A stretch of DNA of 64,000 nucleotides, taken from NCBI GenBank assembly GCA_016781525.1, contig JADDQE010000218.1:1-64000 (forward strand). The letters run 5' to 3'. The notes beneath the pieces were generated by a model. It saw only the letters and a program-made list of their open reading frames with translations. It was not told the origin of the DNA and did no database searches. Source of the DNA: a bacterium (lineage in GTDB: Bacteria; Chloroflexota; Chloroflexia; Chloroflexales; Kallotenuaceae). The position numbers and the translations under genes were made by a program. Positions 19,493 to 56,665 of this stretch are shown here, piece by piece. Every line of letters starts with the position of its first letter. Within the stretch, counting starts at the first letter, position 1.

Positions 19493-19502
19493 GCGCCGCG
19501 TT

Positions 19503-32164: not shown

Positions 32165-33313
32165 CTAGCCACGTTCCGTGAGCGGCACGTAACGAACATC
32201 CATCGGTCCAGTATATAAGGCAGCAGGACGCATAATTCGATTGTTCGCAATTTGCTCGATGACGTGCGCGGTCCAACCGGACACACGACTGATTGCAAAA
32301 ATTGGGGTGAACATATCGATCGAGATTCCTAGGACGTAGTACAGCGAGGCCGAGTAGAAGTCCACGTTGATCGGCAAGTTCGGTTTGAGCTCGCCCATGC
32401 GCTGTTCGATGCGCTCGGTCAGCTCGTACCACTGGAGATCCCCATTCGCCTCGCCCACGTCCCGAGCGATAGTGCGTAAGATGAGCGCCCGTGGATCGTC
32501 AGCGCGGTAGACACGGTGACCAAACCCCGGAATCTTCTTTTTGTTGGCTACTGCGTCGTCAACCCAGGCTGTTACACGCTCAGGAGACTGAATCGCTTTC
32601 AGCATGCGCATAACTTGCTCATTGGCCCCACCGTGTAATGGCCCCTTGAGTGCACCGATGGCCGATGTAATTGAAGAAAACATATCAGCAAGTGTCGACG
32701 CAGTTACCCGCGCGGCAAACGTCGAGGCATTCAAGCTGTGGTCTGCGTGCAAAATAAGGGCGATATCTAGCACTGAGGCGGCGCGCTCGTTGCCGACTTC
32801 TCCGTTCAACATGTACAAGAAATTGGCAGCATGGCTCAGATCATCACGCGGCTGCACAGTTTCCTTGCCTTGCCGAATCCGCTCCCACGCCGCAACAATT
32901 GTTGGCGTCACAGCGGTCAGGTAGGTCGCGTGCTCAACGAGCGCCTCGTGCGATGTATCATCGCTGTTCGGCGCGAACACCGAGAGCGCGGACGTAACTG
33001 TACGCAAGACCGCCATGGGATTGGAATTTTGAGGTAGCCGCTCCATGGTACGCAGCAGCTCCTCGGGCAAGTGACGGTGCCGCTTCAGCGCTCGATCTAG
33101 TTCATCAAGCTGCGCTCGCGTAGGCAGGCTGCCATGCCACAAGAGATAGACCGTCTCTTCAAAGGTTGACGCTTTTGCCAACTCGTTAAGTTCGATCCCT
33201 CGATAGTATAATCGGCCGTTCTCACCGTCGACGTGGCTGATTGCAGTTCTTGCCGCGACGACTCCCTCGAGCCCCCTATCGGCGGTCGAGGCATCTAGCG
33301 TGTTATTGCTCAT
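32165..33313 (-). CDS. citrate synthase/2-methylcitrate synthase family
   Basis: GLEGVVAARTAISHVDGENGRLYYRGIELNELA, PLHGGANEQVMRML, IPGFGHRVYRADDPRALIL; start at MSNNTLDAS. Confidence 0.93.
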   Translation of the reverse strand: MSNNTLDASTADRGLEGVVAARTAISHVDGENGRLYYRGIELNELAKASTFEETVYLLWHGSLPTRAQLDELDRALKRHRHLPEELLRTMERLPQNSNPMAVLRTVTSALSVFAPNSDDTSHEALVEHATYLTAVTPTIVAAWERIRQGKETVQPRDDLSHAANFLYMLNGEVGNERAASVLDIALILHADHSLNASTFAARVTASTLADMFSSITSAIGALKGPLHGGANEQVMRMLKAIQSPERVTAWVDDAVANKKKIPGFGHRVYRADDPRALILRTIARDVGEANGDLQWYELTERIEQRMGELKPNLPINVDFYSASLYYVLGISIDMFTPIFAISRVSGWTAHVIEQIANNRIMRPAALYTGPMDVRYVPLTERG

Positions 33314-33513
33314 TCTTCCCTCCTTACACGTACACCAACATCCAGCAGGCAGCATTTGCATGTTCTACGCATTAGTCCCGGCCAGTAAGCTAGGTTCGTT
33401 GTCGACATGCCTATATCACAGGTTATGCACCTGCCGGATACCATGGGAGCCAAGCAAGTCGCTCCGTGTCGTTCGCTCACTGCAATGGGCACCAGGGCAT
33501 TTCAATGTTTACT

Positions 33514-33540
33514 TGTTCCGTATTGTGGAATGTCGGTCCA
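33514..33540 (-). promoter_or_regulatory. three-half-site operator-like motif upstream of citrate synthase
   Basis: minus strand TGGACCGACATTCCACAATACGGAACA; 19/27 identical to the motif at 38371-38397. Confidence 0.55.
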
Positions 33541-33858
33541 CCTGTTAGACATACACCTCCTTTTGGGGTATCATGAGGCTTGGGCATTGCGTCTTTTACG
33601 TGAGCGCGGGAATAAGGAGCCTCAGTGATTGGTCTCTCCTCCGCTAAGGCCAACCCCGGCGCAAAGGCAGCGTATTCCGGAGCACGATATGGCGGCAGTA
33701 CGATTGCCGCGAGCTCGCTTGGTTCTGCGTTATGTAACACCGAGCTGGCAGCTTAGCAGTGATCTGCAGCGTTCTCGTGTCACAATAGTTACCCGTACAG
33801 TAAAGATTGCGACAGACGCTCCGGAGGGTGCGACTAGCGCTAGTTCGGGAGGAAGATT

Positions 33859-34629
33859 ATGACCGGTTCCGAACAGATTTCGGCAACGTCGGCACCAAGG
33901 GTCGCCTTGGTAACGGGTGCCGGACGCAACATTGGTAGAGCTATCGCGCTCGCCCTTGCTGAGGGTGGCGCCGATATCGTGGTGAACGTCCGGACTAACC
34001 AACACGAGGCTGAGCAGGTCGCGGATGAGATACGGGCGATGGGGCGACGCGCGATAACGTACTGTGCCGATGTGCGTGACGGTACTGCTGTGGCGGCCAT
34101 GTTCGCCACGGCACAGCAGCAGCTCGGGCCGATCACCATCCTTGTAAATAACGCAGCTATTCGTAGCGAAGCCACGTTTCCCGAGTTGTCATTTGCGGAA
34201 TGGCAACAAATCCTCAGCATCATCCTCGACGGTGCATTTATTTGTAGTCAGGCGGCGTTGCGCGACATGACGCAGGTCGGCTGGGGACGCATCGTTAACA
34301 TTGCAGGCATGACTGGGCAAAGCGGTGCTGCAAACCGTGCCCACGTCGTCGCTGCGAAGGCTGGGCTTATCGGCCTCACCAAAGCGCTCGCCCTTGAATT
34401 TGCCGCCGGCGGGATCACCGTCAACGCGGTATCCCCAGGTATGATCGAAACGGCACGGGGCGGCAGTGGCTCTCTACACACTCCTGCACACCACAGCGAG
34501 CGCTCCGTGCCGGTTAAGCGACGCGGAACCCCCGAAGAGGTTGCAAGTTTGGTGCGCTATCTGGTCTCAGATGCGGCGGCCTTTATCACCGGCCAGACGC
34601 TCGGCATCAATGGAGGAGTGTACTTATGA
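33859..34629 (+). CDS. SDR-family oxidoreductase (FabG-like)
   Basis: ALVTGAGRNIGRAIALALAEGGADIVV, LVNNAAIRSEATF, YLVSDAAAFITGQTLGINGGVYL; catalytic Tyr position reads AANRAHVVAAKAG (YxxxK Tyr not evident). Confidence 0.88.
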   Translation: MTGSEQISATSAPRVALVTGAGRNIGRAIALALAEGGADIVVNVRTNQHEAEQVADEIRAMGRRAITYCADVRDGTAVAAMFATAQQQLGPITILVNNAAIRSEATFPELSFAEWQQILSIILDGAFICSQAALRDMTQVGWGRIVNIAGMTGQSGAANRAHVVAAKAGLIGLTKALALEFAAGGITVNAVSPGMIETARGGSGSLHTPAHHSERSVPVKRRGTPEEVASLVRYLVSDAAAFITGQTLGINGGVYL

Positions 34630-35996
34630 CGGACCAGGTTCAACTACCCTCAGAAGAGCTTGCCGAATTTATCGCGACGGCTCCCGCCTCATCAATTCCG
34701 GCTGAGGTGCTACGTAACTGCAAGCGACACATCCTCGATACGCTTGGAACAGCAATTGGCGCCCGGGGTACGCCTGCATTCACAATTTTGCGCGACGTCC
34801 TCCGTGAGCAAGGAGGTGCACAACAAGCGCACGTGGTGGGCGATAATCTGTTCACCTCGATCACAAACGCTGCTCGACTCAACGGTGTGATGTCGCACCT
34901 CCTTGACTTTGACGACACGCACATTCCAACTATTTTACATCCCAGCGGGCCGACGCTCTCGGCAGCACTCCCGCTTGCCGAGCTACGGAAAACAGCGGGT
35001 CGTGAGGTGCTCGTCGCATTCGCGCTGGGTCTTGACGCCGGGTGCCGCGTCGCGCTTGCGCTTGGGAAGGCGCACTACGACATTGGATGGCATGTGACGG
35101 GCACGGCTGGCCCGCTTGCCGCCGCGGCGGCAGCAGCACGCCTCTTGGGACTGGATTCGCCGCGGACTCACACCGCACTGTCGATTGCCGCGACCGAGGC
35201 AGCGGGCCACCGCGTACAATTCGGGGCAATGACGAAGTCCCTCCACACCGGTAACGCGGCGGCGAACGGCCTGCTTGCTGCACTGCTTGCCGAGCGTGGG
35301 TATACCGCGAGCCGTGAAGGGCTGGAAGGAGCTCGCGGCTTACTCCATGTCGCCTCGACGGAACCTGCGCCCCAGGAGCTGTCGGCCGAGCTCGGCAAGC
35401 GCTGGGAGATCTTTCGAGTTGGGATCAAACCCTACTCTTGTGGTGTAGTCACGCATCCTGGTATTGACGCCGTTCGGCAGCTGGCTCAGCGTACCGGCGC
35501 GGCCGCAAGCGAGGTTGAAACGATCGAGCTGGGCGTGCATCCCCTCGTTCTAGAGCTGACCGGGAAGTCGCGACCCCGTACAGGCCTCGAAGGGAAGTTT
35601 AGTATCGCCTTCGCCAGCGCAATAACGTGGCTTGAAGGCACCGCACGTCAAAACCAGTTTACGGATGAGAAGGTACAGCGTCCAGATGTGGAGGACTTAC
35701 GCGACCGCGTGCATGCATCCGTCGATCCAAGCCTCAGTCACACTGAGGCCAAGGCCACTGTACGGCTACGCGACGGCCGCGCCGAAAGCGTACACGTGAC
35801 GGACGCGACAGGCACGCCCGGTAACCCGATCAGCGATCAAGAGCTACGCGAAAAATTTATCGAGTTAACAGCGCCGCATTTGAAACCCGGCGCTGCCCAA
35901 GCAGTGATTGGGTACGTTGAGCGGCTGGAGGAACTCGAAGACTTGACGCCACTGCTCGATGCTCTTCGCGCTCCGACGGGAGGTGCGCTCGACTAA
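34626..35996 (+). CDS. MmgE/PrpD family protein (copy 1)
   Basis: MSHLLDFDDTHIPTILHPSGPTLSAALPLAE, GWHVTGTAGPLAAAAAAARLLGL, MTKSLHTGNAAANGLLAALLAERG. Confidence 0.9.
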   Translation: MTDQVQLPSEELAEFIATAPASSIPAEVLRNCKRHILDTLGTAIGARGTPAFTILRDVLREQGGAQQAHVVGDNLFTSITNAARLNGVMSHLLDFDDTHIPTILHPSGPTLSAALPLAELRKTAGREVLVAFALGLDAGCRVALALGKAHYDIGWHVTGTAGPLAAAAAAARLLGLDSPRTHTALSIAATEAAGHRVQFGAMTKSLHTGNAAANGLLAALLAERGYTASREGLEGARGLLHVASTEPAPQELSAELGKRWEIFRVGIKPYSCGVVTHPGIDAVRQLAQRTGAAASEVETIELGVHPLVLELTGKSRPRTGLEGKFSIAFASAITWLEGTARQNQFTDEKVQRPDVEDLRDRVHASVDPSLSHTEAKATVRLRDGRAESVHVTDATGTPGNPISDQELREKFIELTAPHLKPGAAQAVIGYVERLEELEDLTPLLDALRAPTGGALD

Positions 35997-36100: not shown

Positions 36101-37168
36101 ATGAAGGCATGGCCAGTTCTTTTGGGTTCCGTCGTGGCCGGGTACCTGGCACAGCACGTCGGTCTGCCTGCGGCTTGGTTGATCGGCCCCATGCTTGTGG
36201 CTCTGGGCTTATCGCTTACCAACCGCGGCTACCTTCGATTACCCAAGTTTGCTCCGGCCGGAGCCCAGGCAATCATCGGCGTTGCCCTTAGTGCCTCTGC
36301 GGACCCCGAATCACTAAGAGTCTTACTAAGATACTGGGCGCCTGTTCTCTTACTAGCCGTCGCGGTACTCGTCATCAGCATCGGCAGTGGGCTTGTCCTT
36401 TCACGAGTTGCCGGGCTTGACTCGGTCACAGCTTTGTTCGGGACATTGCCTGGCGGTTCTGCTGGAATGGTCGCGATGGCCGACGATTTGGGCGGCGATG
36501 TACGCATGGTTGCGTTCATGCAATACACGCGCCTGATCCTTGTCGTCTTGTCGGCGTCGCTGCTTGCCCGCTTCGTCCTGGCACCGTCGCAGGTTCCACA
36601 GCTCCACCAGCAAATTACCGGAGCCCCGCTCGTGGCGCACCCGCTCAGCGACTACCTCCTGACGCTACTGGTCGCGCTTGTTGGGGGCGTTGCTGGGGTG
36701 CGCCTTGGCGTTCCGGCTGGCGCGCTCGCTGGGCCGGTACTGTTGGGAGTAGCGGTTGGGGCAGCAGGCCTATTTCACATGGTCTTACCGCCGGGATTGC
36801 TGCTCGTTGCGTATGCTGTAATCGGGATCCGTGCTGGTTCACGCTTCGATCTCGAGGCGATCCGGCGGCTCCGGCACTTAATGGCTCCGGTCCTAGCGTA
36901 CGTCGTACTGCTAATGGTTGGTTGCGGATTACTAGGCTGGGTTCTTGTAGCTGCCGCCGGAATCGAGCCGCTTACGGCCTACCTTGCGACCACGCCGGGC
37001 GGTATCGATTCCGTCACCGCCGCGGCGATTGACACGGGGGCTGATACGACGTTAGTTCTCGCAGTGCAGCTCTTTCGAATGCTTGCTGTAGTCATCGTTG
37101 GACCCTTGCTGTCACGCTGGCTCGTCGGCCGAGCGGGACGGGTCGAAGTTGATCAGTCGCCGAGCTAG
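36101..37168 (+). CDS. AbrB-family (AbrB duplication domain) membrane protein (copy 1)
   Basis: two repeated halves each with conserved LPGGSAGM / TPGGIDSVTAAAIDTGADTTLVLAVQLFRML. Confidence 0.82.
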   Translation: MKAWPVLLGSVVAGYLAQHVGLPAAWLIGPMLVALGLSLTNRGYLRLPKFAPAGAQAIIGVALSASADPESLRVLLRYWAPVLLLAVAVLVISIGSGLVLSRVAGLDSVTALFGTLPGGSAGMVAMADDLGGDVRMVAFMQYTRLILVVLSASLLARFVLAPSQVPQLHQQITGAPLVAHPLSDYLLTLLVALVGGVAGVRLGVPAGALAGPVLLGVAVGAAGLFHMVLPPGLLLVAYAVIGIRAGSRFDLEAIRRLRHLMAPVLAYVVLLMVGCGLLGWVLVAAAGIEPLTAYLATTPGGIDSVTAAAIDTGADTTLVLAVQLFRMLAVVIVGPLLSRWLVGRAGRVEVDQSPS

Positions 37169-37356: not shown

Positions 37357-38178
37357 GTGGATATGAATAGATCTTCGCCAGCGGAGGCGCAGGACCGTAG
37401 CGCTGTCCAATCGTTCGATCGAGCCATCGCGATCCTGAACGCCTTTACGCCAGAGTGTCCGTCGTTGAGTGTTTCACAGCTCGCCCGAATTACAGGGCTA
37501 AGCCGCAGCACAACCCATCGTTTGCTCACAAGCTTGCAGCATCATGAGCTCGTCGTCCAGCTTGGAAATCGAGACTACACGCTTGGCCCGCATATACTGC
37601 GCCTCGCCCACGTCGCCTGGAGTCGCGTCAACATTCCTGCGATCGCGCGTCCGATCATGGAATGGCTACGTGACGAATGCAATGAAACCGTTGGTCTACA
37701 TTTACCACACGGAGATTTTGCGAGAACCGTGGTCGATCAGGTCGAAAGCCGGCAACCGTTACGCCGAACCTACACGGATATGGGACAAGCGATCCCAATC
37801 CATCAGGGCGCACCGGGCAAAGTTCTACTGGCGTTCCGGCCGCTGGAACTGCAAGAACGGATCCTTGTGCGACAGCTCGAGGAGGCTACCCCGTACACAA
37901 TTACCGATGGGGAGGAGCTTCGAGCCGAGCTGCGTCGGGTAGCCGAGTGCGGCTTTGCGATCTCACTCGAAGAGCGCGTTGTGGGCATTGCAACAGTGGC
38001 GGTCCCCATTCATAACCATACCGGCGAGGTCGTCGGAGCGCTTGGGGTTACTGGACCTAAGACGCGCTTAACACCAGAACGTCTCCTAAATCTGGCACCT
38101 CTGACACGGCAAGCTGCGGATCGAATCTCAAGCAGCCTGGGCTATATCCCGCGCGAAAGCGCAGCGCAAAGCTCGTGA
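37357..38178 (+). CDS. IclR-family transcriptional regulator
   Basis: AVQSFDRAIAILNAFTPECPSLSVSQLARITGLSRSTTHRLLTSLQHHELV; effector domain HQGAPGKVLLAF, VGIATVAVPIHNHTGEVVGALGVTGP. Confidence 0.93.
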   Translation: MDMNRSSPAEAQDRSAVQSFDRAIAILNAFTPECPSLSVSQLARITGLSRSTTHRLLTSLQHHELVVQLGNRDYTLGPHILRLAHVAWSRVNIPAIARPIMEWLRDECNETVGLHLPHGDFARTVVDQVESRQPLRRTYTDMGQAIPIHQGAPGKVLLAFRPLELQERILVRQLEEATPYTITDGEELRAELRRVAECGFAISLEERVVGIATVAVPIHNHTGEVVGALGVTGPKTRLTPERLLNLAPLTRQAADRISSSLGYIPRESAAQSS

Positions 38179-38331: not shown

Positions 38332-38360
38332 TTGACTTAATTGTACCTTTAGGGTAGGCT
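38332..38360 (+). promoter_or_regulatory. putative promoter of the tctBAC operon
   Basis: TTGACT - 17 bp - TAGGCT, 10 bp upstream of the operator-like motif. Confidence 0.5.
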
Positions 38361-38370: not shown

Positions 38371-38397
38371 TGGAATGGCGTTCCGTCATGCGGAACA
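38371..38397 (+). promoter_or_regulatory. IclR-like three-half-site operator
   Basis: TGGAATGGCGTTCCGTCATGCGGAACA: GGAA-N5-TTCC overlapping TTCCG-N5-CGGAA; the first palindrome has the same spacing as the known IclR consensus (TGGAAATNATTTCCA). Confidence 0.6.
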
Positions 38398-38635: not shown

Positions 38636-39133
38636 GTGGAGGTTTGCCTGGTGGAACCGAACGCGAACAAGAAACGAGATGTATGGACGGCAGTCGTGCT
38701 CTTAGCCCTGGCAGGCTTTTACTTATTCAGTACCTTCCAGTTTTCGCCCGGTGGCAGTGGGAACCTTCCAACCGCACGGACCATCCCTTTTTTGCTCACA
38801 GGTGCGCTAGTGCTGCTTTCGATTGCGCTCTTCTGGCAGAACCGCTTCCAGCAAATCAAGCGCCCTGCCGCTCTTTCCGAGGGCGACGATGATGAAGCCC
38901 TGTTGATTGAGGACCCGAGCCGACTCCGCCTTGGGTTATTCCTCGCCATCCTCGTAATCTATGCCCTGACCATGCCCTACATCGGATTTTTGATTGCTAC
39001 AATCGCGCTTGGTGTTCTGTTGTTAGCAGTCGTGTTTCGCTCCGTATCGTTGGTCAACTTCATAGCAGTCCTTGCCCTTACAGGCTTTAGCTACTGGTTA
39101 TTCGCCCGGGTGCTCAGTATTCCGTTGCCGTAG
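38636..39133 (+). CDS. tctB: tripartite tricarboxylate transporter TctB family small membrane subunit (copy 1)
   Basis: 4-TM small protein immediately upstream of TctA; GFYLFSTFQFSPGGSGNLPTARTIPFLL. Confidence 0.82.
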   Translation: MEVCLVEPNANKKRDVWTAVVLLALAGFYLFSTFQFSPGGSGNLPTARTIPFLLTGALVLLSIALFWQNRFQQIKRPAALSEGDDDEALLIEDPSRLRLGLFLAILVIYALTMPYIGFLIATIALGVLLLAVVFRSVSLVNFIAVLALTGFSYWLFARVLSIPLP

Positions 39134-39155
39134 AGCGTATCAGCGAAGGTCTGCC

Positions 39156-40703
39156 ATGGAAGCATTTACGGGATTAATGGGTGGATTTGCAGTGGCGTTG
39201 CAGCCGGCCAACCTTTTGGCCGCGTTCATCGGCTGCCTCATCGGGACCATCATCGGGGTTCTGCCCGGCATCGGACCGGTCTCGGCTGTTGCACTACTCT
39301 TACCACTGACCTTTGGCCAGCCCGCGGTTACATCAATCATTATGCTAGCCGGCATCTACTACGGCGCCATGTACGGGGGTGCGCTAACCTCGATTTTGAT
39401 TAACGCCCCCGGCGAATCTGCGAGCGTTGTAACGACCTTAGACGGCTACCAGATGGCAAAGCAGGGACGGGGAGGTGTAGCCCTCGGCATCTCGGCCATC
39501 GCCTCATTCGTCGCCGGCACCATCGGTGTGCTGTTGCTCATGCTGTTGGCACCCGCCATGGCCGACGTTGCGCTCAGCTTTGGCCCGGCCGAAAACTTTG
39601 CGCTCATGATTCTCGGCCTAACAACCGTCGCCGCACTTGGCTCAGGCAATACAGTCAAAGCGCTCATCAGCGCAGTGCTAGGCTTGATGCTGGCCACCGT
39701 CGGAATAGACGCGGTCTCGGGCCGCACGCGCTTCACCTTTGGATTTGTGGAACTGCTTGGCGGCATTGATTTTGTTGTCGTCGCGATTGGTATTTTTGCC
39801 CTTGGTGACATCCTGGCCAATGTGGAGCGCTCGCGGGAGCAAGTCAATGTGCGCATTGACTATGGAGGCTTTCGTAATTTATGGCCGAGTTGGCAGGATA
39901 TTCGGCAAACATTTTTTCCAATGTTGCGCGGCACCTTCATCGGGTTCTTCGCTGGAGTTCTACCAGGCGCAGGCGCTACCATTAGCTCATTTTTGAGCTA
40001 TATCGTGGAAAAGCGCGTATCAAAAACGCCTGAGCGTTTCGGAAAGGGTGCGCCAGAAGGTGTGGCAGGGCCCGAGGCTGCCAATAATGCCGCAACGGCC
40101 GGCGCAATGGCCCCCATGCTGGTGCTTGGCATCCCAGGATCAGCCACGACCGCCGTGATTTATGGCGCGCTGTTGATGTTTGGATTACGCCCTGGTCCAA
40201 CCTTGTTTATCCAGAACGCCGACTTCGTCTGGGGCTTATTTGCCAGCATGTATGTTGGCAACGTGATGCTCTTGATCTTGAACTTGCCCCTGGTCGGCGT
40301 CTTCGCGCAAGTCGTACGACTGCCATATCCAATTCTCACCTTCGTCATCGTCCTCTTTTCGGTGCTTGGAGCGTTTGGCCTCAACAACAGCTTGTTCGAA
40401 GTATACCTCCTCTTCATATTCGGCATCGTTGGATATGTGCTCAGCAAGGCGAGCATTCCGGCCGCACCACTTGCATTAGGGCTCGTGCTCGGGCCGCTCA
40501 TGGAGCGCGCGTTTCGGCAGTCCTTGATCGCCTCCCGCGGATCGTACCTCGTCTTTGTCCAGAGGCCGATTTCATTAGGCATTCTGGTGCTTGCCTTGTG
40601 CTTTATGGCACTACCCACTCTGCTCGGCCTGTACACCAAGCGCCGGGAACAGCGCCAGGGCCCGGCGGGTACCGCAGAAATGCTGGGTGAGAGAAAGGGG
40701 TGA
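39156..40703 (+). CDS. tctA: tripartite tricarboxylate transporter TctA family permease (copy 1)
   Basis: [96 protein letters not shown]. Confidence 0.95.
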
Positions 40704-40783
40704 TAGCTAGAGCAAACTAAAGTCGGGCTTCCAAAAGCGTTTTGTAATGTTGAACAGGACACCTTCCTGAAAGGATCAAACAT

Positions 40784-41950
40784 ATGATCAGCTGGCAGCA
40801 CTCGTGGAAACGTCTCGTGTTAGCGTCAATTCTCGCTCTCATCATGCCGATCATCGCTGCCTGTGGCAGTGCTCCGGAAACCAGCACTGCACCAGCGCAG
40901 AGCACGGCTCCAGCTGCGGCAGCCAGCCCCGCACAGAACACCGAAGCAAGTCCCGCGGCGAGCGTAGCCGCGGAGCCAGCGGCCAGCGCCTCCGGTCAGG
41001 GAACAACGGCTGCGGCTAGCGCCTCCGGTGCAGGGACAACGGTCGCCGCCAGCTGCCCCGAGGGCTTTCCTAACAAGCCCATCACATTCGTAACCTGGTC
41101 GAACCCCGGTGGCGGCGGCGATGTGCTTGGACGCGCGATGATCACCGCGATCGAGAATCAGAACCTCCTATCCCAGCCTGTCGTGATCGAAAACCGAGCG
41201 GGCGGCTCCGGAGCCGTCGGAATGGCGCACGTCGTTCAGCAGCCAGCCAATGGCTACACCGTTCTGATCGTCACCAAGAACCTGACGTTGACGCCGTTGA
41301 CGCAGAACCTCGATACCGACTACCAGGATTTCAAGCCGATTCAGCGCACACAGCTTGAGCCGTTCTTTGTCGCCGTGCGGACCGATTCACCTTGGAACTC
41401 GCTCAAGGATCTGGTCGCGGCGGCCAAGACCGAAAACGTGACCTTCGGCGGTGCCTTTGCCGGTTCAACCGATAACATGATGTTCTCGTTGCTCGCGGAT
41501 AAGGCCGGCTTCGAGCTCACGTATGTACCCTTTGAGAGCGGTGGTGAAGCTGCAACGGCGCTCGTGGGCGGCACGGTCGACGCCATCTCGGCATCACCAC
41601 AGGAGGTTGCAGCCCTCGTCGATGCGGGCAAGCTGAAGTTCCTTGCAACTCCGTCGGCCCAGCGCGTGCCTGACTTCCCCGATCTCCCCACATTCAAGGA
41701 CGAGGGATTTGACATCACCTTGGAGCAGTGGCGCGGCTTTGTGTATCACAAAGACGTTCCCGATGAGATTGTGGAGTGCATGGACACCGTCCTGCGGCAG
41801 GCCTCACAGGACCCATCATTCCAAAAATACATGGAGGAATCGGGCCTTGCTAACGGGTACCTGCCCGGCGACGAGTTCTATGCACTGCTGGAGAAGGAAA
41901 CCAACGAGAACCGAGCCTTCCTAGAGGAAGCCGGTTTACTTAACCAGTAA
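40784..41950 (+). CDS. tctC: tripartite tricarboxylate transporter substrate-binding lipoprotein TctC (copy 1)
   Basis: lipobox MPIIAACGS; Ala/Ser-rich linker; FPNKPITFVTWSNPGGGGDVLGRAM, VENRAGGSGAVGMAHVVQQPANGYT-type BugT motifs. Confidence 0.93.
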   Translation: MISWQHSWKRLVLASILALIMPIIAACGSAPETSTAPAQSTAPAAAASPAQNTEASPAASVAAEPAASASGQGTTAAASASGAGTTVAASCPEGFPNKPITFVTWSNPGGGGDVLGRAMITAIENQNLLSQPVVIENRAGGSGAVGMAHVVQQPANGYTVLIVTKNLTLTPLTQNLDTDYQDFKPIQRTQLEPFFVAVRTDSPWNSLKDLVAAAKTENVTFGGAFAGSTDNMMFSLLADKAGFELTYVPFESGGEAATALVGGTVDAISASPQEVAALVDAGKLKFLATPSAQRVPDFPDLPTFKDEGFDITLEQWRGFVYHKDVPDEIVECMDTVLRQASQDPSFQKYMEESGLANGYLPGDEFYALLEKETNENRAFLEEAGLLNQ

Positions 41951-42043: not shown

Positions 42044-43123
42044 GTGCCCTACAACATCGGCGTGCTGAATGGCGATGATATCGGCCTCGAGGTTGTGCCA
42101 CAAGCAGTACGTGTTATGCAAGCAGCGATTGCTGCTGAGACCGGTTTAGATGTTCAGTTCCACGATTTTCCGGTCGGTTGGCCGAGTTATCTTGAGTATG
42201 GACACACACTACCCCAGCAGACCATGGATGGCCTGCGCCAGATGGACGGATTTGTGCTTGGACCGATCGGCCACGCCGCCTACCCCAAGGGTGACCCCAA
42301 CTGCGTCAACGCCCACCCGATCTTGCGCAAGCAATTCGATCTCTTTGCAAACATGCGCCCGACTAGGTCGTACCCGACGCTGCCATCTGTGCAGCGCGAC
42401 GTTGACCTTCTAGTCGTGCGAGAAAATAACGAAGGCTTTCAGCCTGACCGCAACATGATTGCGGGCTGCGGTGAGTTCCAGCCCACGGAAGACAGCGCTT
42501 TTAGCGTCCGGGTCATCACCAAGCGGGGCTCGGAGCGGGTCGCGCGTGCGGCATTCGAAGCAGCACGCCAGCGCGGAGGCAAACGGCGCGTCACCGCGAT
42601 CCATAAACGAACCGTCTTCAAGCTGACCGATGGGCTATTCATGCGGACCGTTGAGAGCGTCGCGAAAGAGTATCCCGATATCACGCTGGATGATTATCAG
42701 GTGGACACCTTTGCGATGCATTTGGTCATGCGGCCGCAGCGCTTCGATGTGATCCTCTGCACCAACATGTTCGGCGATATCCTATCGGATCAAGCTGCTG
42801 GCCTAGTCGGCGGCCTGGGCATGGCGCCCGGGCTCAACATCGGCGATACACAGGCAATGGCCCAGGCTACGCACGGGTCGGCACCAGACATCGCGGGCAA
42901 GAAGCTGGCAAATCCGTACGCCATGATTATGTCTGGGCAGATGCTGCTGGAGTGGCTGGGAGCCAGGAACCAGGATGCGCGGATGGTGGCGGCAGCACGT
43001 CGCATCACCACGGCAGTTGAACAGGTCCTGGGCGAAGGCAAGGCGCTGACCCGCGACCTGAGTGGTACCGCGACGACGGATGAAATGGGCGCGGCAATCG
43101 CCGAAGTTTGTCGGGCGCTTTAG
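42044..43123 (+). CDS. isocitrate/isopropylmalate dehydrogenase family protein (copy 1)
   Basis: IGVLNGDDIGLEVVPQAVRVM, LLVVRENNEGFQ, VILCTNMFGDILSDQAAGLVGGLGMAPGLNIG, HGSAPDIAGKKLANPYAMI. Confidence 0.9.
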   Translation: MPYNIGVLNGDDIGLEVVPQAVRVMQAAIAAETGLDVQFHDFPVGWPSYLEYGHTLPQQTMDGLRQMDGFVLGPIGHAAYPKGDPNCVNAHPILRKQFDLFANMRPTRSYPTLPSVQRDVDLLVVRENNEGFQPDRNMIAGCGEFQPTEDSAFSVRVITKRGSERVARAAFEAARQRGGKRRVTAIHKRTVFKLTDGLFMRTVESVAKEYPDITLDDYQVDTFAMHLVMRPQRFDVILCTNMFGDILSDQAAGLVGGLGMAPGLNIGDTQAMAQATHGSAPDIAGKKLANPYAMIMSGQMLLEWLGARNQDARMVAAARRITTAVEQVLGEGKALTRDLSGTATTDEMGAAIAEVCRAL

Positions 43124-43140
43124 CAAACAGGAACGGATCT

Positions 43141-44529
43141 ATGTCACTTACAGCATATGTAGCGGATTGGACGCTTGGTCTCGGCTACGACGATATACCA
43201 GCGAGCGTACGGCAGAAGGCCATCGAGCATATCCTCGACGGTTATGGACTATCTCTGAGCGGCCATGATGAGGAAGGCCATGCCATCATGCGCCACTACA
43301 TTGCCACGATCGAGTGCAAGGGTGAAGTGCAAGTCTTCGGCACGCCGCTCCGTACTTCCGCAGATGCGGCAGCGCTGGTCAACGGCCTCGCGATGCACGC
43401 AATGGACTACGATGATACCCAGCTGTCGACCAATCCCGAAAGCGTGTATGGGCTACTCACCCACCCGACCACGCCGGTGTTGGGCGCTGCCTCGGCTGCA
43501 GCGGAGCTTGTCGGCGCATCCGGCCGCGAGCTCCTTGTCGCCTATGTGGCTGGTATCGAAGTTGCCTGCCGCATTGCCGACGCCGCCAATCCCCGTCATT
43601 ACAACGAAGGTTTCCACTCGACAGGAACGATGGGGGCGTTCGGAGCGGTTGCCGCTGCGGGCAAGCTCCTCAAACTTACGCGGGAGCAGCTGATCTATGC
43701 TCTGGGGATCGCCGCACCACTTGGCGGCGGCTTCCGCGAAAACTTCGGAACGATGAGCAAGCCCTTGCACGCGGGGCATGCAGCACGAGCAGGCGTGATG
43801 GCCGCACGACTGGCCCAAGCCGGGTTCAACGCCACCACAACTATTCTGGAAGCCAAGCGTGGTTTTTATCGGGCTGCAGCGGGCGGCTATGAGCCAGCGC
43901 GTATCGAGGGCAAGCTAGGCAAGCCCTTCTTTTTTGACGATCCGGGCATCTCAATCAAGCCCTACCCCTCGGGCTCACTCTCGCACCCCGGGCAGGACGC
44001 GGTGCTGGAGCTTGTCCGCGAGCATAATATTCAAGCTGAAGATGTGGAAGAGGCGATCGCCGGCACCAACTCCGCGATGCCCAATGCGCTGATCTACGCA
44101 CGGCCCCAGACGGCGCTCGAAGCCAAGTTTTCGTTCCCGTACTTCCTGGCAATTGCGATCCTGCGCCATAAGGTTGGACTGGCCGAGTTCAAGGACGAAG
44201 TTGTGCTCAGCCCCGAGGTGCAAGAATTCTTACCGCGCTGCCACCACGTCGTCGATCCCGAGATTGACGCGCGCGGCTTTCAGCATATGGAGACCAAGAT
44301 CACGATCCGTATGAAGGACGGCCGGGTCTTCGAGAAAACAGCCATGGCGGCAACCGGCCATCCGATGAAGCCGATGACGCGCGAGCAGCTTGAGGCCAAG
44401 TTTTTCGAGTGCGCGGCCCTCGCAATCGATACGGAGCAGGCCCGGAAGGCAGCGGACGTGATCTGGCAACTGGATTCCTTGAAGGATGTTAGCGAGCTAC
44501 ATCGGCTCCTGGCTGGGGAACGCGACTAA
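43141..44529 (+). CDS. MmgE/PrpD family protein (copy 2)
   Basis: HAMDYDDTQLSTNPESVYGLLTHPTTPVLGAASAAAELVGASGRELL, GFHSTGTMGAFGAVAAAGKLL, GTMSKPLHAGHAARAGVMAARLAQAG. Confidence 0.9.
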   Translation: MSLTAYVADWTLGLGYDDIPASVRQKAIEHILDGYGLSLSGHDEEGHAIMRHYIATIECKGEVQVFGTPLRTSADAAALVNGLAMHAMDYDDTQLSTNPESVYGLLTHPTTPVLGAASAAAELVGASGRELLVAYVAGIEVACRIADAANPRHYNEGFHSTGTMGAFGAVAAAGKLLKLTREQLIYALGIAAPLGGGFRENFGTMSKPLHAGHAARAGVMAARLAQAGFNATTTILEAKRGFYRAAAGGYEPARIEGKLGKPFFFDDPGISIKPYPSGSLSHPGQDAVLELVREHNIQAEDVEEAIAGTNSAMPNALIYARPQTALEAKFSFPYFLAIAILRHKVGLAEFKDEVVLSPEVQEFLPRCHHVVDPEIDARGFQHMETKITIRMKDGRVFEKTAMAATGHPMKPMTREQLEAKFFECAALAIDTEQARKAADVIWQLDSLKDVSELHRLLAGERD

Positions 44530-44647
44530 GCAGGAGGCACCGCACTAGTTCGGTCGGCAAGGACCCGCACCGGGTCGTTCTAGCACGGCCCGATCGGGTT
44601 TGGCATAGCATGGCAGCCCTGTCCTGCCAAAGGCAAAGCAGACCCAT

Positions 44648-46159
44648 ATGAATGAGCACTACGATGTCGTCATCGTCGGCGCAGGCAACGCAGCGTTTTC
44701 CGCGGCTCACGCCGCTCGTGAGCGCGGAGCGCGGGTGTTGGTGCTTGAGAAGGCGCCGCGCCAGTGGGTGGGAGGCAACAGCTATTTTACAGCCGGAGCC
44801 TTCCGCACGACGTGGGAAAGTCTCAATGAGCTTCGGCCACTGCTCGAAGAGATGACCGACGAGCTCGCTGCTCAGACGGAACTGCCGGCATACACCCCGG
44901 AGCAGTTCCGATCCGACATGGAGCGCGTGACCGAAGGGCGTTGTGACCCAGAGTTGACCGCTATACTCGTCAACGACGCGGCGCCCGCAATCCATTGGCT
45001 GCATGAGAAAGGCTTGCGCTTCCGCCTGATGTACGACCGCCAGTCATTTCTGGTCGGAGGCAAGCGGCGCTTCTGGGGCGGGTTGGCGGTCGGCACCGTA
45101 AACGGCGGCAGGGGCTTGATCGAGCAACACGTTGCGGCCGCCGAGCGTACTGGAATCGATGTGCGCTACGATTCTCCGGTGATCCGGTTGTTAGGTGATA
45201 ACGACGGGAGGATTATTGGCGTTGGCGTACATGGCCTGCAGGGTATGCAAGAGATCCGGGGCGGATGCGTTATCCTTGCGGCTGGCGGCTTTGAGGCGGA
45301 TCCACGAATGCGAGCGGCATATCTTGGGCAAAACTGGGATGCCGCGAAGGTCCGGGGCACCCCCTACAACACCGGCGAGGTGTTGCAAATGGCGCTCGAT
45401 CGCGGAGCGCAGGCCTACGGGCATTGGAGCGGCTGTCACGCGATCCAATGGGACGCTGCGGCGCCTCCAACCGGCAGCCTCGAGCTAACGAACTTGCTGT
45501 CGAAGCAATCATACCCAATTGGCCTGCTCGTCAACATTGAAGCGCAGCGCTTTTTGGACGAAGGCGCCGACTTTCGGAACTACACCTACGCAAAATATGG
45601 AGCGGAAGTGCTTAAGCAGCCCAACGCGATCGCGTTTCAGCTCTTCGACGCTAAGACTGAGCCGCTCCTACGTCAAGATGAGTATACCGCCCCCGGTGTA
45701 TCACGCGTCGAGGCGGCGACCGTTCGTGAGCTCGCCAGCAAGCTGGGACTCGATCCTGACAGGCTTGAGCAAACCATCGGCGCCTTCAACAAAGCTGTAC
45801 AACCGGGCGAGTTCAACCCGGCGATCAAGGACGCGAAGCGGACGGAAGGTATTCGACCGCCCAAATCGAACTGGGCCCAGCCGCTTGACACCGCACCGTT
45901 CTATGGCTTCCCGGTGACCTGCGGCATCACATTTACCTTCGGCGGTCTGCGTGTTGACGCAGATGCTCGTGTGCTGGATCGAGTGAACCGCCCCATACCT
46001 GGGCTGATGGCGGCTGGCGAACTAGTCGGCGGTCTCTTCTATCACAACTATCCCGGCGGGAGTGGACTCATGTCTGGCACCGTGTTTGGGCGACGCGCCG
46101 GATACAGCTCAGCAACATACGTCGCGAGCCTCGCTACAAACCGACGGCATGATCCATGA
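44648..46159 (+). CDS. tcuA: FAD-dependent tricarballylate dehydrogenase-like flavoprotein (TcuA family)
   Basis: YDVVIVGAGNAAFSAAHAARERGARVLVLEKAPRQWVGGNSYFTAGAFRTT; FYGFPVTCGITFTFGGLRVDADARVLD; PIPGLMAAGELVGGLFYHNYPGGSGLMSG. Confidence 0.88.
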   Translation: MNEHYDVVIVGAGNAAFSAAHAARERGARVLVLEKAPRQWVGGNSYFTAGAFRTTWESLNELRPLLEEMTDELAAQTELPAYTPEQFRSDMERVTEGRCDPELTAILVNDAAPAIHWLHEKGLRFRLMYDRQSFLVGGKRRFWGGLAVGTVNGGRGLIEQHVAAAERTGIDVRYDSPVIRLLGDNDGRIIGVGVHGLQGMQEIRGGCVILAAGGFEADPRMRAAYLGQNWDAAKVRGTPYNTGEVLQMALDRGAQAYGHWSGCHAIQWDAAAPPTGSLELTNLLSKQSYPIGLLVNIEAQRFLDEGADFRNYTYAKYGAEVLKQPNAIAFQLFDAKTEPLLRQDEYTAPGVSRVEAATVRELASKLGLDPDRLEQTIGAFNKAVQPGEFNPAIKDAKRTEGIRPPKSNWAQPLDTAPFYGFPVTCGITFTFGGLRVDADARVLDRVNRPIPGLMAAGELVGGLFYHNYPGGSGLMSGTVFGRRAGYSSATYVASLATNRRHDP

Positions 46160-46196
46160 TGGAAGCGCCAGCATTGTCGGAAAGGAGCATACCCGT

Positions 46197-47354
46197 ATGT
46201 ATCGAATGATCCGTTTCATTGCACTGCCTCTCCTGGTTCTGCTGCTTCTCGCCGCATGTGGTGCCGCGGGCGAGCCAACGGGCGCAGGTGGCCAGGACTC
46301 GCCTGCGACTGCGGCATCCACATCAGCGAATGCGCCATCGGCAGCAGCTGAAAGCAGCATCACGGCTTCGGCTGTGGCCAGCGCTTCCGCAGGTGGAGCT
46401 GCCGCCTCCACAGGTGGAACCACCACCTCCGGAGCCGCAACCACTGCAGGCGGTTCAGCGACATTTGGAACTCAGCCGATTAACATCATGGCGCCGGCAG
46501 CACCAGGTGGTGGCTGGGATCAAACCGCCAGAGCGGTGCAACCTGGCCTCGCCGCCGCCACGAACCAAAATGTTCAGGTCTACAACGTGCCAGGTGCGGG
46601 CGGCACGGTTGGCCTGGCACAATTTGTCAACGATCATCGCGGAAACCCCAACCAGCTGATGATGACCGGGCTTGTCATGGTCGGCGCCATTCAGACCAAC
46701 AACGCGCCCGTCGACCTTACTCAGGCCACGCCGCTCGCTACTCTCACCACGGAGTGGGAGGCGATTGTGGTGCCAACGAACTCAAAGTATCAGAATCTGA
46801 AAGAGCTTATGGACGACTTCAAAGCCAATCCTTCGGCAATCAGCTGGGGTGGTGGCTCGGCAGGCAGCACAGATCATGTCCTGGTCGGGTTGCTTGCGAA
46901 GGAGGTCGGAGCTGATCCATCGAAGATCAACTACATAGCCCACTCCGGTGGCGGAGAAGCGCTGTCTGCTATCCTATCCGGCGCAGTCTCGGCTGGTGTC
47001 TCCGGGCTGAACGAAGTTCGTGATCAAGTACAGGCCGGGCAACTGCGCTTGCTCGGAGTGTCGAGCGATGAACGCCTCGAAGGGCTTGATGCGCCTACCG
47101 TCACGGAGGCGGGCTATAACGTCACGCTGCCCAACTGGCGTGGAATTGTCGCTCCTCCTGATATCTCCGCCGAGGAGCGTGCCGCCATGATCGCCGCATT
47201 GGAGCGGATGCACGAGACTCCCGAGTGGCAGCAGGCGCTTGAAAAGAATGGATGGAACGATTTCTTCCGTACGGGGGACGAGTTCACTAGCTTTCTGCAG
47301 GAAGAAACGACTCGCCTCCAAACGGTCCTGCGCGATATCGGCCTAGTTCAATGA
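46197..47354 (+). CDS. tctC: tripartite tricarboxylate transporter substrate-binding lipoprotein TctC (copy 2)
   Basis: lipobox LLLLAACGA; Ala/Ser/Thr-rich linker; INIMAPAAPGGGWDQTARAVQPGL; PNWRGIVAPPDIS. Confidence 0.93.
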   Translation: MYRMIRFIALPLLVLLLLAACGAAGEPTGAGGQDSPATAASTSANAPSAAAESSITASAVASASAGGAAASTGGTTTSGAATTAGGSATFGTQPINIMAPAAPGGGWDQTARAVQPGLAAATNQNVQVYNVPGAGGTVGLAQFVNDHRGNPNQLMMTGLVMVGAIQTNNAPVDLTQATPLATLTTEWEAIVVPTNSKYQNLKELMDDFKANPSAISWGGGSAGSTDHVLVGLLAKEVGADPSKINYIAHSGGGEALSAILSGAVSAGVSGLNEVRDQVQAGQLRLLGVSSDERLEGLDAPTVTEAGYNVTLPNWRGIVAPPDISAEERAAMIAALERMHETPEWQQALEKNGWNDFFRTGDEFTSFLQEETTRLQTVLRDIGLVQ

Positions 47355-47860
47355 GCACTTCCGATCCGCAGCCTGGGCCACGTCGCAGCTTCGTTGGTCC
47401 ACGCATCCTGAGCGGGGCCATCCTTGGCCTTGGCCTTGTCGTGCTCTACGGGTCGTTCCAGATCCGGCAAGGCGGTGGATATAGCGCGGTGGGACCACGC
47501 TTTTTTCCACTAGCCGTTGCAGTCGGCCTTCTTGCGCTCGGCCTGATCTTTTTGCTCCGCACAACGCTGATCCCCGATCTGGATCTCGCCGAACATGCAG
47601 CCATCGAGGAGTCGGCAACGCACTGGCAAAGCGTAGGGCTGCTTTTAGCCGCCCTGGTGACCTATGCTTTTGCGCTCCAGCTCCTGGGGTACGTCGTCGC
47701 AACAGCTCTGTTCATTTCAGTCGTAGCCCGGTTTCTCGGAAGTCGCAGCGTGGTGCGCGATCTCGTCGTCGGCGTCGGCATTGCCCTAGTAGTCTATATC
47801 GGGTTTACACGCTTCCTGGGAGTCCGGCTACCGGCCGGACTCCTAGACTTCATCCTGTAG
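47351..47860 (+). CDS. tctB: TctB-family small membrane subunit (copy 2)
   Basis: YGSFQIRQGGGYSAVGPRFFPLAVAVGLLALGL; 4-bp overlap with upstream tctC and just upstream of tctA. Confidence 0.88.
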   Translation: MSTSDPQPGPRRSFVGPRILSGAILGLGLVVLYGSFQIRQGGGYSAVGPRFFPLAVAVGLLALGLIFLLRTTLIPDLDLAEHAAIEESATHWQSVGLLLAALVTYAFALQLLGYVVATALFISVVARFLGSRSVVRDLVVGVGIALVVYIGFTRFLGVRLPAGLLDFIL

Positions 47861-47875
47861 CCTAGAAAGACGAAT

Positions 47876-49414
47876 ATGGACGTCTGGAATAGCCTGCTCA
47901 ACGGATTTGCAACGGCGCTTAGTCCAGAATACCTGCTCCTCGCCGCGATCGGAGTGACGCTTGGCACGTTGGTCGGCGTCCTTCCCGGCATCGGTCCCGC
48001 GCTGACCGTCGCCTTGTTGTTGCCGATCACGTATAACTTTGATCCGACCGGGGCCTTTATCATGTTCGCCGGCATCTACTATGGTGGCATGTACGGTGGC
48101 TCGACAACCTCGATTTTGCTCAACACGCCTGGCGAGTCAGCATCCGTGGCGACAACGATTGAAGGTTTTGCCATGGCCAAAGCAGGGCGCGGCGGCGCTG
48201 CGCTCGCTACGTCTGCGATCGGCTCGTTTGTGGCAGGGACGATTTCGACCATTGCGATCACATTTGTGGCGCCCGCCGTGGCACAGCTTGCGCTCCTCTT
48301 TCAGCCTGCCGATTACTTTGCCCTCACAGTGCTGGCGTTTGTTAGTGTCACGGCGCTGGTAGGCCGCTCCCTGCTGCGTGGAATGCTCAGTCTCTTCGTC
48401 GGGCTATTCGTAGGCTTGGTCGGCATCGATGTCCTCAGCGGTCAAACCCGCTTTACATTTGGTGTACGCGAACTGCTTGATGGGCTAGACATCGTGGTCG
48501 TCGCCGTCGGCCTCTTCGCGGTTGGCGAGGCGCTGTATGTAGCCTCGCGCATGCGATACGCAGCCGAAGAGATCGTGGGCGTAAAAGGCAGTGTTTGGAT
48601 GACCCGAGATGAGTGGCGCCGGTCGTGGAAGCCGTGGCTACGCGGTACCTTGATCGGCTTTCCACTCGGGAGCTTGCCGGCGGGTGGTGCCGAGATTCCG
48701 ACGTTCTTGAGCTACAGTCTCGAAAAACGCTTGTCCAAACACAAAGAAGAATTTGGCCGAGGCGCGATCGAGGGTGTCGCTGGTCCCGAGGCAGCCAACA
48801 ACGCCGCCTTCTCGGGCGTGCTCGTCCCGCTGCTCACGCTAGGTATTCCGACATCGGCAACGGCGGCGATTCTCCTGGTGGCCTTTCAGATTTACAATTT
48901 ACAGCCTGGCCCACTCCTGTTTCAAAACGCTCCTGACCTCGTATGGGCACTGATTGCCAGCCTGTACATCGGCAATGTCATGCTTCTGGTGCTGAACTTA
49001 CCGCTCGTAAGGATCTGGATCAAGCTGCTAGAAATCCCACGGCCGCTGTTATACAGTAGTATTCTTGTCTTTGCCACGCTTGGCGTCTACAGCCTCGCGA
49101 ATAGTGTCATCGATGTCCTTATCATGTACGGGATCGGCTTGGTCGGTTTCTTTATGCGGCGCTACGACTTTCCAGTCGGTCCAACCGTGCTAGGCGTCAT
49201 CTTGGTTCCCTTGATGGAGGCGCAATTTCGTCGCGCACTTTCGATTAGCCAGGGAGACCTCACCATCTTTCTCCGGCGCCCAATCTCACTAACGATCCTG
49301 CTCCTCGCAGTCGCGGCAGTTCTGTTGCCATACGTACCCGCCCTCATTGCGCGCTTGCGAGGGAAGAAACGAACTGAAGGACGCTTTGTCTTTGGAAGCG
49401 GAAGTGAGGATTAA
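47876..49414 (+). CDS. tctA: TctA-family permease (copy 2)
   Basis: [109 protein letters not shown]. Confidence 0.95.
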
Positions 49415-49529
49415 CTATTAGCGGGTCGCGGCTGGGGAGCGCCGTTGAACCGGCAAACCACATGGTTAAAGGTGTGCCGGGGCAGGCTCTCAGATCGTTG
49501 AAACATGACGCACTACGGGAAGGCTACCG

Positions 49530-50747
49530 TTGAGCTGGATCTGCTTAATCGGGGCGGCGGTGCTCGGGGCGTACCTCGCGCAATGGGTTCACCTGCCTGC
49601 CGCCGGCATGCTTGGCGCCCTCGCCGGCACAGCTGCTGTGCAATCATTAGGACTCAGCGCAGTTCCTTCCGTCCCGAGCTGGGTGCTGCTGGTGCTCTAC
49701 GCAGCAATTGGGCTGTTGCTCGGCCTCAAATTCACCCGAGCATCACTCTCCTATCTTCAGCGTATTACCTTGCCGGCGCTCCTTGTGCCGATCGTGATGA
49801 TCCTCAGCGGCTGCGGGCTCGGCTTTCTGTACCGCGCTCTGGCACCCGCGGCAGCAGCTTCCACGCTCGACCTCGCCACAGCTGTGCTTGCGATAACCCC
49901 AGGTGGCTTCCAGGAGATGTCAATTGCGGCCCAGGACCTCGGAGCGGAGCTGCCGGCTGTCATTTTCACTCATCTGGTGCGCATCATCGTCGTCATCGGC
50001 GTTTATCCTTGGCTTCTCCATCAAATCGTCAAATCGCAGGCAATTGTGCGCCCGGCAACGATCGAGCAGCGGGCGCTCGCGGTCGCACCGATTACGGCGG
50101 CTGGATCACCGGCAAGGCGAAGAGATCCAATCATAGGCCATGGCGAACAGTCGGCTGGTGGGGGAAGTTTGAGCCGAAGCGAAATCGGCGAGCAAGCTGC
50201 GGACGTGCGGCAGCCTGCCGCTCATGCGCGGAGCGAGCTACCCCACTGGTTGCAGTGGAGCATCGTAGGTGCCGGGACTATGGCTGGTGGTGCCTTCGGC
50301 CGATGGTTAGGCATTCCCGCCGGGGCTGTACTAGGCGCTGTGGTCGGCGCAATCATGTCTAGGACGATCGTCGGGGCGGAGGCGCTAGCCGTGTCAAGTC
50401 AAGCACGCTTCGGTATTCAGATCGCGCTAGGCATCAATCTGGGGTTACAGTTCGAGCTAGGCTCGCTGGCCACAATGCTGACCTTGATCGTGCCGATCGC
50501 GGTATCGCTAGCAGCGCTCATTATGCTCTCACTTGCGACCGGCTGGCTCATCCACAAGCTAGCCGGGCTCGATCTTGCGCTAGCACTGTGGACGACGGCG
50601 CCCGCCGGTCTATCGGAAATAACGTTGCTCGCCGAGGCGGATGGGATCGAGCCACTGCCGGTGCTGACCGTGCATTTGATGCGGGTGATCCTGATCATCG
50701 CAATCCAGCCTAGCCTGGTGCGGGCACTAGCGAGCGTGAACCTATAA
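49530..50747 (+). CDS. AbrB-family (AbrB duplication domain) membrane protein (copy 2)
   Basis: halves ITPGGFQEMSIAAQDLGAELPAVIFTHLVRIIVVI and TAPAGLSEITLLAEADGIEPLPVLTVHLMRVILII; hydrophilic insert between halves. Confidence 0.85.
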   Translation: MSWICLIGAAVLGAYLAQWVHLPAAGMLGALAGTAAVQSLGLSAVPSVPSWVLLVLYAAIGLLLGLKFTRASLSYLQRITLPALLVPIVMILSGCGLGFLYRALAPAAAASTLDLATAVLAITPGGFQEMSIAAQDLGAELPAVIFTHLVRIIVVIGVYPWLLHQIVKSQAIVRPATIEQRALAVAPITAAGSPARRRDPIIGHGEQSAGGGSLSRSEIGEQAADVRQPAAHARSELPHWLQWSIVGAGTMAGGAFGRWLGIPAGAVLGAVVGAIMSRTIVGAEALAVSSQARFGIQIALGINLGLQFELGSLATMLTLIVPIAVSLAALIMLSLATGWLIHKLAGLDLALALWTTAPAGLSEITLLAEADGIEPLPVLTVHLMRVILIIAIQPSLVRALASVNL

Positions 50748-50779
50748 GCCACAAGCTGTACGTTAGGAGCTAGATCGAT

Positions 50780-52060
50780 ATGCCGCAGACATTAACTGAG
50801 AAGATTTTGAGCCGCGCAGCCGGCTACCCGGTGCAGGCGGGAGACCTCGCCATGGTCAAGATCGACTTTGCTATGGTGCAAGACATCAACGGACCAAGGG
50901 TTGTGGAAGTACTGGACGAGCTCCAGGTTGATCGGCTGTTTGATCCAGAGCGCGTGATGTTTGTCTTTGACCATTATAGCCCTGAGCCTACGCCCTTGGC
51001 CAGCAACTTCCACACCCAAATGCGCGCGGTCGCCGAAAAGTTTGGTGTCTCGCTGCGCGATGTCGGGGCTGGAATTTGTCACCAGCTAGTCGTCGAGGCG
51101 GGAGCTGCGCGTCCGGGTGCGGTCGTCGTTGGCACGGACTCGCATAGCTCGACCTATGGCGCACTTGGTGCGTTTGGGGTTAGCCTAGGCGCGACCGAGA
51201 TGGCGGTGGCGCTGATGAGTGGCGAAACCTGGTTCAAGGTGCCCAGGTCGGTCAAAGTCAACCTAATCGGCAGCCCGCCGGCGGGAGTGTCAGGCAAGGA
51301 TATTGCACTGCATCTGCTTAAGCTCCAAGGTGAGGAGGGTGGGCTCTATCAATCATTTGAATTTCAAGGTTCCGGCTTAGCAGCCGTCCCTGTTCACGAC
51401 CGACTAACCATCGCCAACTTGGTCGTTGACTGTGGAGCCAAGGCCGGCATCTTTACCGCGGACGAAGTGACGCGTGCCTGGTTTGCCAGCCGCGGCTTTT
51501 CCGCGGAAGGCTTCGAGGCATGGCGCCCGGACGACGACGCCGAATATCAAGCAGTGCTTACCATAGATCTCTCGGACCTCGAGCCAGTCGTGGCTGTACC
51601 TCACAGCCCAGCGAGTGTGGTTCCGCTCTCAAACGTCCGTGGAACTTCGGTCACGACTGTGTTTATCGGAACTTGTACGAACGGTCGCATCGAAGACTAT
51701 CAGGCGGCGTGCGCGGTGCTGAAGGGCCGGCGCGTGGCTCCCGGAGTACGCTTGCTCTGCTATCCAGCCTCGCGTGATATTCAGCTAGAGCTCCTCCATA
51801 CCGGTATGGCCCAAATCCTCGTGGAAGCGGGCGCAGTGCTCATGCCGCCCGGCTGCGGCCCCTGCGCTGGGCTCCACGGTGGGGTGGCAGGTGATGACGA
51901 TGTCATCTTTTCGACAAGCTCGCGCAACTACCGAGGACGAATGGGGGCGAGCGGGGCACAGATCTATCTTGGGTCGCCTGCCGTTGCAGCTGCTACCGCC
52001 GTGACAGGCAGAATTACCGACCCACAAGAGTTGGTCGAGAGCGACAAGGTGGTGGTATGA
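50780..52060 (+). CDS. aconitase/3-isopropylmalate dehydratase large-subunit family protein (LeuC-like)
   Basis: TEKILSRAAG, VGTDSHSSTYGALGAFGVSLGATEMAVALMSGETWFKVP, FIGTCTNGRIEDYQAACAVLKGR, PPGCGPCAGLHGG (Fe-S cysteines). Confidence 0.92.
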   Translation: MPQTLTEKILSRAAGYPVQAGDLAMVKIDFAMVQDINGPRVVEVLDELQVDRLFDPERVMFVFDHYSPEPTPLASNFHTQMRAVAEKFGVSLRDVGAGICHQLVVEAGAARPGAVVVGTDSHSSTYGALGAFGVSLGATEMAVALMSGETWFKVPRSVKVNLIGSPPAGVSGKDIALHLLKLQGEEGGLYQSFEFQGSGLAAVPVHDRLTIANLVVDCGAKAGIFTADEVTRAWFASRGFSAEGFEAWRPDDDAEYQAVLTIDLSDLEPVVAVPHSPASVVPLSNVRGTSVTTVFIGTCTNGRIEDYQAACAVLKGRRVAPGVRLLCYPASRDIQLELLHTGMAQILVEAGAVLMPPGCGPCAGLHGGVAGDDDVIFSTSSRNYRGRMGASGAQIYLGSPAVAAATAVTGRITDPQELVESDKVVV

Positions 52061-52557: not shown

Positions 52558-52666
52558 AACCGAGGATTGTGGGGGCATCCACACGTAGGGCATCGGTTGG
52601 CGAGGCATCCATTCGCCGGCAAAAAGACCTTCAGCAGCCAGTCTGTCACGGGAGCAAAGTGAAGCC

Positions 52667-53593: not shown

Positions 53594-53701
53594 CGGTAGC
53601 GCAATCAAGGTACCGGGCACGACCTAAAGTAACCGAGGGTGCGCTTGCAGTGATGGATGGCGCGAGGGCGAACGCGTCTGATGATGCAGGAGTGGGAGAC
53701 A

Positions 53702-55240: not shown

Positions 55241-55390
55241 TGGAGCTTTAGCAGGGCAAGGGATGCACGCGCCAATCACTTCAGGCTGCTGCGAGGCGTC
55301 CTTGTGGTTCAAGCCGTTCCAACGTTTGGACGACGATTATCGTTGCGAATATGATGTAGCTTCCAAGAATTGTACGGCAGGAGTTTATTC

Positions 55391-56482: not shown

Positions 56483-56665
56483 GGCGGGTATCGCGTGGGT
56501 GAGCGACCGTAACCAAGCCGAACGATCCCAGACACGAGTGGTGTAGGCAGGAACAGCATGCTGTCGTCGCCCTAGCAGTGCCGCCGCATGCGCTATGCAG
56601 GCGTTGGGGCAGCAAACGCGCGAGGCGATACGTACTGCAAGATCTTGTACGGAAAGTGAAGAAAC

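Follow-up and report, generated by a model that had tools for sequence, protein, structure and literature searches.

A probable second three-box IclR-type operator between a citrate synthase paralog and a divergent gene run near a tricarboxylate transporter cluster of a Chloroflexales bacterium

Operators of IclR-family regulators are the subject of a survey by Suvorova and Gelfand (2021, PMC8222616), and the parts of this survey used here give the consensus GKTYCRYW3-4RYGRAMC for group 1 and describe sites extended by a third box that continues the alternation of direction (three-box sites). Such three-box operators are reported there for 32 orthologous groups and for regulators like PcaU, PobR and HmgR. 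The same parts give 20-80 bp ahead of the start codon as the usual position of the sites, as a trend and not as a definition, rate sites at -300 to -400 as very rare, and name COG3181 and COG3333 among the members of IclR regulogs (PMC8222616). The three-box IclR operator is an already described type. Regarding a regulon composed of an IclR regulator, a tricarboxylate transporter and a citrate synthase, nothing specific was found in the literature.

The window, which is the whole 64-kb stretch of DNA analysed here, contains a group of genes which, from its predicted products, reads as a cluster for importing and degrading tricarboxylic or related acids. An IclR-family regulator (37357..38178, plus strand; PF09339 and PF01614) is located upstream of genes for TctB, TctA and TctC of a tripartite tricarboxylate transporter (38636..41950, plus strand); COG3181 and COG3333 are presumably the TctC and TctA families. 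The rest of the cluster (42044..58390, plus strand) encodes, in this order, an Iso_dh family protein, a second MmgE/PrpD-family protein, a TcuA-like protein, a second TctC/B/A set, a second AbrB-type protein, LeuC/LeuD-like proteins, a PrpB-like lyase, a malonyl-CoA-synthase-like ligase, a second Iso_dh family protein and a malic enzyme. The two AbrB-type (PF05145) proteins (36101-37168 and 49530-50747) lie one beside each TctBAC set. In the second of them, the best stretch, located at the N-terminus, covers the family model in its second half only, and the start or the domain order of this protein may be unusual. One other family of the class (f10) contains close relatives of the TcuA-like protein (63-66%); the searched genomes of the genus and of the family yielded none at E <= 1e-60, and the stretches read around the TcuA relatives (49-66%) lacked the other cluster genes. 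The flanks of the window carry a glycosyl hydrolase family 6 protein (60500-61504, minus strand) and a family 18 protein (19464-20825, plus strand).

Upstream of the regulator gene, a run on the plus strand consists of an SDR-family oxidoreductase (33859..34629), the first MmgE/PrpD-family protein (34626..35996) and the first AbrB-type membrane protein (36101..37168), the latter being separated from iclR by 188 bp. A citrate synthase paralog of 383 aa and of the TIGR01800 type (32165..33316, minus strand), whose start codon at 33316 stands behind AAGGAGGGAAGA, is transcribed divergently from this run. The intergenic region of 542 bp between the citrate synthase and the SDR gene harbours the site at 33514-33540.

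On the minus strand this site reads TGGACCGACATTCCACAATACGGAACA and forms a putative three-box IclR operator with GGAC (33536-33539), TTCC (33527-33530) and GGAA (33516-33519); the sequence, strand and coordinates given in the earlier note were verified in the letters of the window. The first operator copy, upstream of tctB (38371..38397, plus strand; TGGAATGGCGTTCCGTCATGCGGAACA), comprises GGAA (38372-38375), TTCC (38381-38384) and GGAA (38392-38395), and the centres of both sites are about 4.86 kb apart. The earlier note had counted 19 of 27 identical positions in an ungapped alignment, and our recount gave the same value. The alignment also reproduced the order, spacing and orientation of the half-sites, which are equal at both sites and alternate in direction in each of them; of the 12 core box bases all but one are identical, box 1 of the 33514 site having GGAC in place of GGAA. 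An open frame of 16 codons (MSNRWTDIPQYGTSKH, after AAGGAGGTGT; 33502-33552, minus strand) overlaps the operator; it could be a chance occurrence or encode a leader peptide for the citrate synthase transcript. Furthermore, a possible third, degenerate operator (40730..40756, plus strand; TCCAAAAGCGTTTTGTAATGTTGAACA) was detected in the gap of 80 bp between tctA and tctC of the first transporter set. It shows 18/27 identical positions to the tct site and four mismatches to the consensus described below, and a match of this quality arose in 5 of 2000 shuffled versions of this gap, a number that precedes correction for the approximately 12 gaps examined. This weak match in front of the first tctC fits the same regulon.

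Both sites agree well with what is described for the family. Boxes 2 and 3 match the group-1 consensus at 16 of 17 positions in each site, the mismatch being at a different place in each, and most differences between the two sites in these boxes are exchanges inside the degenerate R, Y and W classes. Boxes 1 and 2, compared by hand with the group-2 consensus TGRAACAN1-2TGTTYCA, fit at about 10 of 14 positions in each site, where the outer bases fit and the inner ones do not. A three-box search consensus (TGRAANNNNGKTYCRYWWWRYGRAMCA) was written from the group-1 consensus as it appears in the parts of PMC8222616 used here, and the four free spacer letters of the pattern were chosen after both sites had been viewed. 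The 33514 site deviates from it at two positions and the 38371 site at one. Neither site lies at the usual distance of 20-80 bp, as the start codons of the citrate synthase and of tctB follow at about 211 bp and about 252 bp, respectively, from the centre of the site in front of them.

With up to three mismatches, this consensus occurred twice in the window, compared with 0.05 expected matches. Across the 4.9-Mb genome (assembly about 86% complete), scanned by pattern matching with mismatch counts and not with a weight matrix, three sites with <=2 and six with <=3 mismatches were found; in 119 related genomes, the background at <=2 mismatches amounts to about 0.35 sites per genome. Two of the three sites are those at 33514 and 38371, which flank iclR on either side. 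A stricter pattern of the letters common to both sites, and hence built from these sites themselves, was present twice in this genome and gave one exact match in the 119 others. The earlier note had named similar sites in front of many unrelated genes as an argument against its reading; since the genome contains so few sites at these thresholds, such a distribution is not seen, and the pattern scan does not refute the reading. The sole other site at <=2 mismatches is C255:1599-1625(-) (L188, G000:C255), and neither an IclR gene nor a gene of the cluster was found within the 6 kb read around it. The agreement with the consensus of the family, together with the rarity in the genome, supports the claim that the IclR-type three-box operator of tct is present here a second time, and judged by these properties of its letters the stretch at 33514-33540 is probably a true operator of this kind.

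It could be argued that the 33514 site is an unrelated sequence which resembles the tct operator by chance. The raw identity speaks for caution, as 9 of 40 shuffled motifs reached 19/27 somewhere in the 64-kb window, and it was for this reason dropped as sufficient proof. Within the intergenic region itself, only 1 of 1000 dinucleotide shuffles reached 19/27, and none of 400 shuffles came within two mismatches of the three-box consensus, the nearest having four. A comparison of conservation would be a further argument; the related genomes examined yielded no orthologous cluster, so that operator conservation is no usable test, a fact which leaves some room for chance. No IclR ortholog with more than 41% identity was present in 120 relatives, none at E <= 1e-48 occurred among 400 genomes of the phylum with the exception of one at 39%, and none was confirmed in the genome contigs searched. 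Plasmid relatives were all below 60%, and next to the IclR relatives in G104, G113, G057 and G099 the rest of the cluster was absent in the stretches examined. Nevertheless, the fit to an independently derived family consensus, the genome-wide rarity and the place next to iclR make a chance resemblance quite improbable. If the sites are real, their binding partner might also be a different regulator, such as the second IclR-family protein of this organism, which is encoded on C111 and possesses an IclR HTH as well as an effector domain. This is very improbable, because the regulator at 37357-38178 lies between both sites and the strongest sites of the genome cluster around its gene. Since only these two genes with an IclR_C domain exist in the genome and this one is located between the sites, its predicted product is the likeliest binder of both.

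The target of the second operator is less clear, because the site lies between both gene sets and adjoins a promoter-like sequence facing the SDR run; it may be the citrate synthase, the run SDR-MmgE/PrpD-AbrB-like-(IclR), or both. According to a further reading, the operator is real and serves only the divergent SDR, MmgE/PrpD and AbrB-like genes together with iclR in the sense of an autoregulation, the citrate synthase being a mere neighbour. Regulators often control their own cluster, and the run indeed leads to iclR. Moreover, the sole promoter-like sequence in the region, TAGACA-17-TATCAT (33546..33574, plus strand; 10 of 12 consensus positions), faces the SDR gene and starts 5 bp beyond the operator, and no clear sigma-70-like promoter for the citrate synthase was recognised on the minus strand of the intergenic region. 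However, this promoter match is only modestly above chance (0.3 such matches expected in the region). The centre of the site is about 332 bp away from the SDR start, a distance at which IclR sites are very rare according to the parts of PMC8222616 used here, in comparison to about 211 bp for the citrate synthase. In addition, the orientation and the distance of the operator relative to the citrate synthase resemble those at tctB. Control of the SDR run alone is therefore considered unlikely, and joint control, or control of the citrate synthase, is more likely. Regarding the link of the citrate synthase to the transporter regulon, which the earlier note had proposed, the same rare IclR-type operator was found as described, and the citrate synthase as its target remains the weaker part of this proposal, the site lying between divergent genes and no clear citrate synthase promoter having been recognised.

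In the genome, three citrate synthases are encoded, i.e. the copy in the window and two others on C138 and C171, which answers the question of whether further copies exist elsewhere. By the named relatives of its citrate synthase and by the kinship classes, the organism is a member of the Chloroflexota, most probably of the order Chloroflexales. The copy in the window shares 74% identity with that on C138, and C171 carries a more distant one (47%). G001 and G003, which belong to the same genus, each yielded a single close copy, whose flanking genes are shared by the C138 copy. The genes flanking the copy in the window are not those of G001 and G003, and this copy has a longer branch, although its precise placement in the tree has weak support. 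Because the neighbourhood on C138 is kept as elsewhere in the genus, the C138 copy is, by gene position, the housekeeping citrate synthase, and the paralog in the window is an extra copy, just as had been presumed. No operator was detected upstream of the other two citrate synthases, where the best matches had six and eight mismatches. The paralog reaches 497 bits against TIGR01800 (cut-off 421.3), and in the alignment its catalytic His/His/Asp motifs (GPLHGGANE, GFGHRVY and NVDFYS) are intact, which suggests an ordinary working enzyme; the idea that it might be a sensing enzyme found no support. A more specialised role is doubtful in our opinion: the duplicated citrate synthase, recruited to the IclR regulon, might act alongside the LeuCD-like, Iso_dh, MmgE/PrpD and PrpB-like enzymes in breaking down tricarballylate-like or alkylated tricarboxylic acids, where it would carry out a dedicated reaction with an acyl-CoA or an acceptor that differs from acetyl-CoA and oxaloacetate.

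Starting from the observed site, its rarity, its consensus fit and the paralogy, we infer a regulation of which the binding, the repression, the effector and the controlled promoter are all to be read conditionally. We consider it rather likely that the site at 33514 is a true second operator of the regulator at 37357-38178 and that one binding event there could control the citrate synthase, the SDR run, or both. The regulator would bind three alternating boxes, of which boxes 1 and 2 would form an IclR/group-2-like palindrome and boxes 2 and 3 a PcaU/group-1-like one. A possible tct promoter, TTGACT-17-TAGGCT (38332..38360, plus strand), was found by eye, scores below the threshold of the program and ends 10 bp before the first operator; a position directly past the promoter is the classic place for a repressor. 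Bound at 38371, just downstream of this plausible promoter, IclR would keep tctBAC blocked as long as it senses no organic acid, be it imported or derived. Its binding at 33514 could control the citrate synthase, the SDR-MmgE/PrpD-AbrB-like run leading to iclR (autoregulation), or both. The citrate synthase in the window would then be an induced duplicate supporting the catabolism of a tricarboxylate-like substrate, and the C138 copy would serve the ordinary TCA cycle. If this is true, the entry enzyme of the citrate cycle is co-induced with tricarboxylate uptake in a Chloroflexales bacterium, apart from the housekeeping copy, and the small regulon gives a hint at the substrate of the organic-acid cluster.

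In comparison to tricarballylate utilisation systems, the product of 44648-46159 (plus strand) exceeds the cut-off of the TcuA model (NF006130, FAD-dependent tricarballylate dehydrogenase TcuA; 591.6, cut-off 369), and no partner of the TcuB or TcuC type was identified among the genes examined. As in TctCBA loci, tctB, tctA and tctC are adjacent here; in contrast to these, two TctBAC sets occur together with TcuA-like, LeuCD-like and PrpB-like proteins and two MmgE/PrpD proteins. The citrate synthase passes the model of citrate synthase/2-methylcitrate synthase type II (TIGR01800) with the catalytic motifs present, but differs from the organism's own C138 enzyme as an extra, faster-evolving copy beside a transport and catabolic cluster. 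With the three-box IclR operators of PcaU, PobR and HmgR, the sites described here have the three boxes of alternating direction and the group-1 match of boxes 2 and 3 in common, and boxes 2 and 3 of the tct site are of the GTT-11-AAC type found in such operators. In the parts of PMC8222616 used here, three-box operators belong mainly to the catabolism of aromatic compounds or sugar acids, whereas the neighbours of the present sites, which occur in a Chloroflexales genome and at distances above 200 bp from the start codons, are genes for tricarboxylate transport, MmgE/PrpD proteins and a citrate synthase.
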